Assembly (NCBI RefSeq): GCF_025972045.1
Contig: NZ_JAPDHX010000003.1
Coordinates: forward strand, 434,001 to 498,000
Origin: Micropruina sonneratiae
GTDB lineage: Bacteria; Actinomycetota; Actinomycetes; Propionibacteriales; Propionibacteriaceae
DNA length: 64,000 bases
Direction of reading: 5' to 3'
In this document: positions 51,453 to 55,461 of the stretch, piece by piece
How the letters are laid out: every line of letters starts with the position of its first letter
How positions within the stretch are numbered: position 1 is the first letter of the stretch
Made by a program: the position numbers and the translations under genes
The notes under the pieces: model-generated
Databases searched by the model: none
What the model was told of the DNA's origin: nothing
What the model saw: the letters and a program-made list of their open reading frames with translations, nothing else

Positions 51453-54317
51453 TCAGGCGGGGACGACGTTGACCAGCTTGGGTGCCCGCACGATCACGGT
51501 GCGGACGCCGTTGGGTGTCTCCTCGGCGATCCGCGGCAGCGCCAGCGCCCGTGCGCGCAACTCGTCCTCGGAGATGTCGGCGGGGACCTCCAAGCGGGCC
51601 CGCACCTTGCCCTTCACCTGCACCACGCAGGTGACGGCGTCCTCGACCAACAGCGCCGGGTCGGCGACCGGGAACGGTTCGTAGGCCAGCGTGTCCGCGT
51701 GTCCCAGCCGTGACCACAACTCCTCGGCGATGTGCGGGGTCAACGGAGCCACCATCAGCAGCATCGGCTCGATCGCCGCCCGCGGCACCGCGTCCAGTTT
51801 GGTCAGCACGTTGTTGTACTCGGTCAGCCGGGCGATCGCGGTGTTGAACGACAACGACTCGTAGTCCCTGGTCACAGCGTCGATAGTCCGGTGCAGAGCC
51901 ACCGTCGTCGCGGCGTCCGGGGCGGTGTCGACGATCCGGATCTCGCCGGTGGTCTCGTCCACCGCGTTGCGCCACAGCCGCTGCAGGAAGCGCTGCGAAC
52001 CGACCACGGCCCGGGTCTCCCACGGCTTCGACTGGTCCAGCGGGCCCATGCCCAACTCATAGATCCTGAACGTGTCGGCGCCGTAGGAGTCGTACATGTC
52101 GTCGGGAGTGACGATGTTCTTCAGCGACTTGCCCATCTTTCCGTACTCCCGGGACACCTCCTCTCCCTGCCAGCGGTAGTGGATGTCACCGTCGGCGCCG
52201 GCGACCTCCTCGACCTCGTCGGCGGGCACGGTCTGGCCCCGGGCGTCGCGGAACGCGTAGGCTTGGATGTAGCCCTGGTTGTACAGCCGGCGGAAGGGCT
52301 CGGCCGAGCTGACCTGGCCCAGGTCGAACAGCATCTTGTGCCAGAACCGCGAGTACAGCAGGTGCAGCACCGCGTGCTCGACGCCGCCCACGTACAGGTC
52401 GACGCCACCGACATCGGCGACGTCGGCACCACCGACGTCGGACGCCGAGCGCGGGCCCATCCAGTACCGCTCGACCTCGCGGTCGACGAACCGGTCGTGG
52501 TTGGCCGGATCCAGGTAGCGCATCTCGTACCAGCACGAGCCGGCCCACTGCGGCATCACGTTCAGTTCGCGGCGGTAGGTCTTCGGGCCGTCGCCCAGAT
52601 CCAGTTCGACGGTGGCCCAGTCGGTGACCCGGCCCAACGGCGGCAGCGGTTCCGACGTCGAGTCGTCGGGGTCCAGCGCCTGCGGGCTGTAGTCGTCGAT
52701 CTCGGGCAGCGTCACCGGCAGCATCGACTCGGGCAGCGCGATCGGGTAGCCGCCCTCGTCGTAGACGATCGGGAACGGCTCGCCCCAGTAGCGCTGCCGG
52801 CTGAACAGCCAGTCGCGCAGCTTGTAGGTGACGGTCTCGGTGCCCGTGCCGTTGGCGCTCAGCCAGTCGATCATCGTCGCCTTGGCGTCGGCCAGGTTCA
52901 GGCCGTTCAGCGAGATCTCGTCGTTGGCCGAGTTGATGGTCGGGCCGTCTCCGGTGAACGCGGTGTCCTCGTCGTGATCGGCCGGCGGCTGCACGGTGCG
53001 GATGTAGGGCAGGTCGTAGGCCTTGGCGAAGTCCCAGTCCCGCTCGTCCTCGGCCGGCACCGCCATGATGGCCCCCGTGCCGTAGCCCATCAGCACGTAG
53101 TCGGCGATGAAGATGGGGATGCGGGCTCCGTTCACCGGATTGATCGCGAACGCGCCGGTGAAGACGCCGGACTTGTCCTTGTTCTCCTGGCGTTCCAGAT
53201 CGGTCTTGCGGGCCGCGGCCTCGCGATAGGCCGTGACCGCCTCGGACGGCGACGCCGCCCCGCCCGTCCACGCGTGGTTGCTGCCGGCCGGCCAGGAGTT
53301 CTCGCCGGGCGTGATCGCGTCCACGATCGGGTGCTCGGGGGCCAGGACCATGAACGTGGCGCCGAACAGGGTGTCGGGGCGGGTGGTGAACACCTCGATG
53401 GCGGCCTCGTGGCCGTCGACCACGAAGGTGACCGAGGCGCCCGAGGAGCGGCCGATCCAGTTGCGCTGCATCGCCTTGACCTTGTCGGGCCAGTCCAGCC
53501 GGTCCAGGTCGGCCAGCAGCCGGTCGGCGTAGGCGGTGATCCGCATCATCCACTGCTTCATGCTGCGCTTGAAGACGGGGAAGTTGCCGATGTCGGAGCG
53601 GCCCTCGGCGGTGACCTCCTCGTTGGCCAGCACGGTGCCCAGCCCTGGGCACCAGTTGACCGGCGCCTCGGACAGGTAGGCCAGCCGGAACGAGTCGATC
53701 ACGCCGGCCTGCTCGGCGGCGTCCAGGTCGGCCCAGGGGCGCCCGTCGGGGGTGGGGCGGGCGCCAGAGGCGAACTCGTCGACCAGTTCGGCGATGGGCC
53801 TGGCCCTGTCGGCCTCGTGGTCGTACCAGGCGTTGAAGACCTGCAGGAAGATCCACTGCGTCCACTTGTAGAACTCGACGTCGGTGGTGGCGATGCTGCG
53901 CCGGTCGTCGTGGGCCAGTCCCAGCCGGCGCAACTGACGGCGCATGTTGGCGATGTTGGCCTCGGTGGTGACCCGCGGATGCTGGCCGGTCTGCACCGCG
54001 TACTGCTCGGCGGGCAGGCCGAACGCGTCGTAGCCCAGGGTGTGCAGCACGTTGCGGCCGCGCATCCGCTGGTAGCGCGCCCAGGTGTCGGTGCCGATGT
54101 AGCCCAGCGGGTGTCCGACGTGCAGCCCCGCCCCGCTGGGGTAGGGGAACATGTCCATCACGAACAGCTTGTCCCGGCCGGCCAGCTTGTCCGGCTCGGC
54201 CCACACCCCGGCCGGGTTGGGGGCGTGGAAGGTGCCCTCGGTCTCCCAGCGGTCCTGCCAGGCCTGCTCGATCCGGCCGGCCAGTTCAGCGGTGTAGCGG
54301 TACGGGGTCTCGCTCAT
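51453..54317 (-). CDS. leuS: Leucyl-tRNA synthetase
   Basis: 954 aa. HIGH-like HVGHPLGYI near residue ~60, an editing (CP1) domain in the middle and the KMSKS equivalent KMGKSLKNI near ~735, with the C-terminal anticodon-binding domain. ATG with AGAGGATGAG as ribosome site. A leader ORF rich in Leu and a terminator precede it, so expression should respond to charged tRNA-Leu. The long insertion [20 protein letters not shown] (~660) is unusual. Confidence 0.95.
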
Positions 54318-54349
54318 CTCATCCTCTTGTCGTTCTGCTGTCGGGCATG

Positions 54350-54375
54350 AAAAAGCCCCTCGCGCAAGGAGGGGC
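54350..54375 (-). terminator. leuS attenuator terminator
   Basis: GCCCCTC and GAGGGGC (7 bp, 7-nt loop) followed by TTTTT on the minus strand, located between the leader peptide stop and the leuS start. Would end transcription before leuS when charged tRNA-Leu is plentiful. Confidence 0.85.
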
Positions 54376-54395
54376 GCCGCGTTGACGGTGGAGGG

Positions 54396-54431
54396 TCAGC
54401 GCGGCTGTCGAAGCAGAAGTCGGAACGTCAC
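54396..54431 (-). CDS. Leader peptide of leuS (three tandem Leu codons)
   Basis: 12-codon frame read MTFRLLLRQPR then stop. Codons 5-7 are CTT CTG CTT; CTT is rare in this GC-rich genome, so starved ribosomes should stall there. GTG start at 54431 with TAACCT at -12 to -7, so a leaderless start is likely. The terminator at 54350-54375 follows after 20 nt, and GCCGCG (54400-54405) can pair with CGCGGC (54376-54381) next to it. This is the arrangement of amino-acid attenuators. Confidence 0.8.
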   Translation of the reverse strand: MTFRLLLRQPR

Positions 54432-54437
54432 GGGGTC

Positions 54438-54443
54438 AGGTTA
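54438..54443 (-). promoter_or_regulatory. -10 hexamer (TAACCT) of the leuS leader transcript
   Basis: At -12 to -7 before the leader peptide GTG; no -35 consensus. Confidence 0.45.
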
Positions 54444-54606
54444 CCGCAGTTCGGCCCGGGCGGTCCGACGCGAGCCGCGACGTTGCGCAGGCCATGGCAG
54501 GTTGCGCAGCTGCACCCCTGCGCAATGAGCCACCGGGTGCGCGACGTCGCCCGCTCGTTGTGCGGACGCCCCGCGTGGGGGTCCGCGACCGGCGGAGCGT
54601 TCGGAC

Positions 54607-54612
54607 TAGCCT
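54607..54612 (+). promoter_or_regulatory. -10 hexamer (TAGCCT) of the DUF3097 gene
   Basis: At -12 to -7 before the GTG at 54619, no Shine-Dalgarno sequence. Divergent from the leuS leader promoter. Confidence 0.45.
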
Positions 54613-54618
54613 GGCCGG

Positions 54619-55461
54619 GTGAGTCGATACCCACGTGATGTCCTCGCGCCCGGCTGGCAGCGGGCCGGCAAGCCCGTCAGCACAGAGGTCGCCGCCCAGC
54701 CCGGCATGGTGCTGGAGGATCCGACCTCCGGTTTCGTGGGGGCGGTGGTGCGGCTCGAGAACGGGCTGCTGGTGCTCGAGGACCGCGCGGGCAAACGGCG
54801 CAGCTTCCCGCTCGGACCCGGCTTCTGGCTCGACGGCAAGCCGGTCAGCGTGGCTGCTCCGAAGCGAACCATGGCCGGTCCGGGGAGGACGCATACGGCG
54901 TCCGGTTCACGGGTGTCGAGTGCCGCACCCAAGGTGGCGCTGCCCAGCCGGATTTACGTCGAGGGCCGGCACGACGCCGAACTCGTCGAGAAGGTGTGGG
55001 GCGACGACCTGCGGCACGTCGGCGTCGTCGTGGAGTACCTGGGCGGCATCGACGACCTGCCCGCGATCGTGACCGAGTTCGCGCCGCAGCAGGGCCGCCG
55101 CCTGGCAGTGCTGGTCGACCACCTGGTGCCGGGTTCGAAGGAATCCCGGATCGTCGAGCAGGTCGGCAACCCATGGCTGTTCGTGACCGGGCACCGCTTC
55201 ATCGACATCTGGACGGCGGTGAAGCCGTCCGTGCTCGGGTTGAAGGCGTGGCCGGACGTCCCGCGCGGCCAGGACTACAAGGCCGGGCTGTGCCGGGCGC
55301 TGGGCTGGCCGGCGCGCACCCAGGCCGACATCGCCGAGGCGTGGCGGCACATCCGGTCCAAGGTGACATCGTGGCGCGATCTCGACCCGGCGCTGCTGAC
55401 CGAGGTGGAGAAGCTGATCGACTTCGTCACCGCCGACCACGCCGACACCCTGGAGCCGTGA
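54619..55461 (+). CDS. DUF3097 protein (TOPRIM-like)
   Basis: 280 aa. The C-terminal half has RIYVEGRHDAELVEKVWGDDLR and LAVLVDHLVPGSKESRIVEQV, like a Toprim/RNase M5-type metal site (E..D..D). The family is actinobacterial and uncharacterised. GTG start with leaderless promoter; the next gene overlaps by 1 bp. Confidence 0.88.
   Translation: MSRYPRDVLAPGWQRAGKPVSTEVAAQPGMVLEDPTSGFVGAVVRLENGLLVLEDRAGKRRSFPLGPGFWLDGKPVSVAAPKRTMAGPGRTHTASGSRVSSAAPKVALPSRIYVEGRHDAELVEKVWGDDLRHVGVVVEYLGGIDDLPAIVTEFAPQQGRRLAVLVDHLVPGSKESRIVEQVGNPWLFVTGHRFIDIWTAVKPSVLGLKAWPDVPRGQDYKAGLCRALGWPARTQADIAEAWRHIRSKVTSWRDLDPALLTEVEKLIDFVTADHADTLEP

Follow-up and report, generated by a model that had tools for sequence, protein, structure and literature searches.

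A leucine-codon leader, hairpin and terminator before leuS in Micropruina and many genera of its class: a probable attenuator without a predicted antiterminator

Is the leuS gene of Micropruina sonneratiae controlled by a short translated leader that senses leucine tRNA, and by which RNA structure would such control act? The question was raised by a 64-kb stretch of this genome (the window, meaning the whole of the DNA analysed), in which a sequence-only reading had placed a leucine-rich leader peptide and an intrinsic terminator before leuS. Both are present. The leader, GTG ACG TTC CGA CTT CTG CTT CGA CAG CCG CGC TGA on the minus strand (54431-54396), carries the run CTT CTG CTT and has homologues in relatives, and folding returned the proposed GC-rich 7-bp hairpin with T5 between leader and leuS, its arms being GCCCCTC (54375-54369) and GAGGGGC (54361-54355), followed by TTTTT (54354-54350). 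A further hairpin, A:B, takes its 5' arm from the 3' end of the leader frame itself (Table 1). The product of the downstream gene scored 867.7 bits against TIGR00396 leuS_bact (cut-off 548.4) and contains the Pfam LeuRS editing domain PF13603.

Table 1. Features of the leuS locus, in window positions.
Feature	Position	Strand	Basis or remark
-10 box TAACCT	54438..54443	-	sequence; 6 nt 5' of leader GTG
Stretch TGCGGTAACCTG, containing TAACCT		-	recurs in Streptomyces leuS leaders
Leader ORF GTG...TGA, MTFRLLLRQPR, 11 residues and stop	54396..54431	-	predicted leaderless
Last Leu codon CTT, predicted sensed codon	54411..54413	-	8 nt 5' of hairpin
Arm A (5') of switch hairpin, GCCGCGC	54399..54405	-	fold; compensatory changes; under ribosome stalled at last CTT
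Arm B (3') of switch hairpin, CGCGGC	54376..54381	-	fold; compensatory changes; abuts terminator
Intrinsic terminator, 7-bp stem, loop of 7, then T5	54350..54375	-	fold; conserved in relatives
AGCAGAA, complementary to leader Leu codons	54333..54339	-	between terminator and leuS
leuS, leucine--tRNA ligase, 954 aa	51453..54317	-	TIGR00396, PF13603; ATG at 54317
DUF3097 gene, upstream neighbour	54619-55461	+	divergent from leuS

The terminator might have been the end of an upstream gene, an explanation that we rejected: the DUF3097 neighbour is divergent, so the terminator is not its own, and leuS is the gene that promoter, leader and terminator serve. We then scanned the window for the full pattern of a -10 box, a short leaderless ORF with three consecutive leucine codons and a terminator. 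The leuS leader was the only site in 64 kb, and 40 shuffles gave none. CTT had been called rare in this genome, and 34 likely genes of the window use it for 28 of their 1729 leucine codons (1.6%), leuS for none of its 73 and the leader for two of its three. A search of 54100-54800 with Rfam families, including the T-box, returned no match up to E=5. The start of the transcript is predicted at or next to the leader GTG, by analogy with a leaderless homologue in S. lividans (PMC8079986), and the proposal of a leaderless start is supported as a prediction by TAACCT 6 nt before the GTG, a spacing conserved in relatives. The arrangement at this locus is real and exceeds chance.

To determine how far the arrangement extends, we searched upstream of leuS in the closest public LeuS relatives. 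The leader was present in Micropruina, Streptomyces, Kitasatospora, Embleya, Yinghuangia and Wenjunlia, as well as in Jiangella, Prauserella, Amycolatopsis, Actinophytocola and Austwickia; it was not found in the corresponding regions of Mycobacterium, Nocardia, Rhodococcus, Actinomyces and Acidimicrobia. Alignment of the upstream regions showed the leucine run and the terminator to be conserved in relatives, on which the sequence-only reading had let its case depend. With a covariance model built from 23 leaders, matches were obtained in 54 of the 147 Propionibacteriaceae genomes; at the level of the class, 226 of 395 sampled genomes and 94 of 138 genera had one (E <= 0.01; the genome counts include some weaker matches before other genes). 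In the window's own genome the leuS leader was the sole match at E<=1. We retrieved about 80 additional regions to see which gene follows: among strong matches for which this could be seen, all lay upstream of leuS except L209 and L210, which precede cimA; one contig (L224) was too short to show the gene. Terminators of Pseudonocardiales lack a clear T-run. Several relatives in the family (L088-L096) carry the window's LeuS type with neither leader nor terminator upstream, the attenuator having been either lost or never acquired. Another locus (L109), before a leuS of the other type described below, has a leader reading MHGVSLELA and stop, whose leucine codons are only TTG and CTT, with a similar stem and terminator; it is possibly a decaying or minimal form.

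The geometry of the element is held more tightly than its peptide. Among the homologous leaders (154 non-identical loci), TANNNT stands 6-7 nt before the start codon in 149 of 150, a peak that is informative without being independent, since a spacing of 5-9 nt was part of the selection. CTT serves as the last leucine codon in 140 of 150 leaders, CTC in the other 10. Counted from the first base of this codon, the hairpin starts 8 nt downstream in 119 of 150, and 0-2 nt separate A:B from the terminator in 135 of 145. In one group (MSGTLLLT, MRRTLLLT) the stop codon falls between CTT and hairpin, and elsewhere (leaders ending in LLLSEPR) it lies past that interval. The distance along the RNA is thus constant though the peptide tail varies, which argues that what is kept is where a stalled ribosome stands with respect to the hairpin. 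Both structures show compensatory evolution, with 19 cells changed on both sides of A:B and terminator pairs versus 8.8 in shuffles; such changes occur in seven pairs, five of them in A:B. The analysis names the codon predicted to be sensed and yields a distance rule with which similar sensors for other amino acids can be sought and tested.

In folds of the leader RNA the ribosome was taken to cover about 28 nt. Stalled on the last CTT, it lowered the predicted probability of A:B from 0.95 to 0.09; placed two codons earlier, it left A:B at 0.97. Since A:B is lost in the first state and kept in the second, the last CTT is the predicted switching point. A ribosome at the stop codon likewise covered arm A (A:B formed at 0.02 in the model), so that 'on' and 'off' states would differ only given quick release of the ribosome. 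The terminator was predicted to form in every ribosome state. The sequence-only reading had taken GCCGCG/CGCGGC for a stem competing with the terminator. That hairpin is real, but it pairs with itself, abuts the terminator and has no base in common with it. In the folds a stalled ribosome removed this hairpin, and no antiterminator arose. The earlier interpretation as a whole is partly supported.

From these results we consider it likely that the leuS leader is a ribosome-controlled transcription attenuator that senses charged tRNA-Leu. Sensing of leucine tRNA by the leader is very likely, and control of leuS by charged tRNA-Leu is inferred. There are strong grounds, in the mapped S. lividans homologue, for a transcript that would begin at the leader GTG and be translated without a Shine-Dalgarno sequence. 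When Leu-tRNA is plentiful, the ribosome would finish the leader and leave, A:B would form against the terminator, and transcription would halt short of leuS. Under Leu-tRNA shortage the ribosome would wait at the rare CUU with its front edge over arm A; with arm A covered A:B would be blocked, and more polymerases would presumably read through into leuS. The switched element would therefore be A:B itself. As no antiterminator was found, we suggest that A:B, stacked in tandem with the terminator beside it, makes that terminator stronger, a guess on which doubt slightly outweighs belief.

The most familiar alternative is classical attenuation of the trp type, in which the stalled ribosome permits an antiterminator to take the 5' arm of the terminator. 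PMC1262725 describes the Streptomyces leuS attenuator in just such terms, with 'antiterminator and terminator hairpins', and ilvB1 of M. tuberculosis operates in this way (PMC13236596). The leader codons (CTT CTG CTT) also match the amino acid of leuS and are conserved, as trp-type control would have them. The equilibrium probability of the terminator proved useless as a test of attenuation, because it stays at 0.9-1.0 in E. coli trpL, leuL and thrL; this measure being blind to known attenuators, we replaced it by the capture of the terminator 5' arm before its 3' arm is made, stall minus stop. The controls were then clearly positive (trpL about +0.45, leuL about +0.60, pheM about +0.47, thrL about +0.76), whereas the change over 137 leuS leaders averaged -0.04 with a maximum of 0.35, none reaching a rise of 0.4; by prediction these leaders have no antiterminator. 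With no capture in the folds, the label 'antiterminator' given to Streptomyces leuS in that text does not seem borne out. Together with A:B and terminator sharing no base, this makes the trp-type reading unlikely. Judged against the E. coli controls, the folds contained no antiterminator that excludes the terminator and is favoured by a stall, so we do not class the element as trp-type, though it may act alike. Absence of the textbook structure by prediction makes the assumed mechanism directly testable.

Control might instead be translational, the leader's leucine codons pairing near the leuS ribosome site, as in the LEU element of leuA, until a stalled ribosome frees the site. In the window AGCAGAA complements these codons, similar matches occur in other Micropruina, and pairing is strong at some other loci. 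By eye the match was attractive in Micropruina, Embleya and Wenjunlia, yet pairing reached p<0.05 in only 8% of 123 loci and did not exceed shuffles class-wide; pairing of leucine codons with the leuS 5' spacer, which marks the LEU element, left a weak hint in Micropruina alone. Such control would also leave the terminator unexplained, and we regard it as quite improbable. A last reading, that leader and terminator merely hold leuS expression constant or respond to translation in general rather than to leucine, draws on the terminator being predicted in all ribosome states, and we know of no experiment on the response of leuS. Against it stand the CTT at one fixed place in nearly all leaders and the position of the model's other matches, before branched-chain amino acid genes with Leu, Ile or Val leaders, and we consider it very improbable. 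As a separate observation, AGCAGA (window 54333-54339) is kept in six of six Micropruina genomes within an otherwise variable spacer; it is not significant outside the genus.

The probable attenuator stands before two different synthetases. About 16 of 147 family genomes carry the window's LeuS type, and the rest carry one that is some 43-48% identical to it. In a tree of the N-terminal parts of 162 LeuS, the sequences fall into two groups that a long branch separates with 100% support; all had been picked for carrying or neighbouring a leader, so the tree tells that both types have the element and not how often. One genome (G356) encodes both synthetases, each behind its own leader (L211, L212). 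Outside Micropruina, the nearest leader (score 48.8) precedes a gene for the other LeuS type, but Streptomyces is equally near (48.4). The Micropruina leuS may have been swapped beneath an old leader, or gene and leader may have arrived together. One element before two very different LeuS suggests that the control region outlived a gene replacement or was acquired twice.

Weaker matches of the leuS model lay upstream of leuA, leuC, ilvB and cimA, with matching leaders; these gene names are our reading of the translated sequences rather than the result of a family search. Several leuA leaders and one leuC leader have a CTT 8 nt before the hairpin; for the ilvB leaders our scan revealed no clear codon with this spacing. 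The leuC-like (3-isopropylmalate dehydratase) gene is preceded at one locus (L268) by the leader MRTVLLLLSGRDETSF and stop, with the CTT-to-stem distance seen at leuS. Five loci (L209, L210 and L240-L242) have predicted leaderless, Ile/Val-rich leaders before a cimA-like (citramalate synthase) gene. The cimA leaders include MPSQVLIIVRRAG, MHHLVIIS, MHLMQLIIS and MSAVVVIIS, each followed by a stop, in the same hairpin-plus-terminator layout as at leuS, and as read from the sequences an Ile codon, ATT or ATC, stands 8 nt before the hairpin. A bolder reading is a class-wide design free of antiterminators: a ribosome stalled at one fixed, rare codon would remove the hairpin that starts 8 nt further on and so weaken the terminator abutting it. 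The element would have been retained before two non-equivalent LeuS, and its sister elements would control leuA, leuC, ilvB and cimA. We put this forward tentatively, as a generalization that we rather doubt than believe.

Several known systems resemble the leuS element in part. T-box riboswitches also let tRNA charging control tRNA-synthetase genes; the leuS element differs in having no Rfam match and in sensing through a translated leader. E. coli leuL and pheM share the sensing of hungry codons by a ribosome before an intrinsic terminator, and pheM likewise controls a tRNA synthetase, but both show strong antiterminator capture on stalling and are not leaderless, in contrast to the leuS leaders, with their predicted leaderless start and no capture. 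Closer in phylogeny is ilvB1 of the actinobacterium M. tuberculosis, where an intrinsic terminator accompanies a leader ORF that contains branched-chain codons and for which codon-dependent attenuation was shown by reporter mutation (PMC13236596); it differs in a terminator and antiterminator that are mutually exclusive in its authors' folds, and in sensing LVVI. The LEU element of leuA (Seliverstov 2005) shares a Leu-rich leader with CTT and, in several loci, a stem at equal distance, but it is reported as a pseudoknot in which leucine codons pair with the leuA ribosome site, with no obvious terminator. As a point against attenuation, mutations of leader codons of S. coelicolor ilvB and leuA had outcomes unlike those of the classical mechanism (reviewed in PMC1262725).

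The nearest relatives are in Streptomyces, so the novelty that the sequence-only reading had implied does not hold. Attenuators were predicted before leuS of S. avermitilis and S. coelicolor in 2005 (Seliverstov, PMC1262725), and S. lividans leuL2 (MRAVRLLLSEPR) was reported in 2021 as leaderless by RNA-seq and furnished with a terminator (PMC8079986). These loci likewise have leuS behind a leaderless Leu-rich leader, a hairpin and a terminator, and the Streptomyces loci of our set rank among the best matches of the covariance model; the leucine run, hairpin and intrinsic terminator between leader and leuS place the Micropruina element in the leuL2 type. For leuS leaders in other families and for cimA leaders we found nothing in the open-access literature, most subscription journals lying outside the search. 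A Leu-rich leader with terminator before leuS is therefore an already known kind. The Streptomyces accounts, as far as their text was available, concern a single genus, describe an antiterminator that the present folds do not contain, and make no mention of a second LeuS type or of the constant position of CTT. What is new is the extent across the class, the second LeuS type and the doubt on mechanism: a probable leucine sensor, so far reported from a few Streptomyces, now extends to the majority of the genera sampled in the class.
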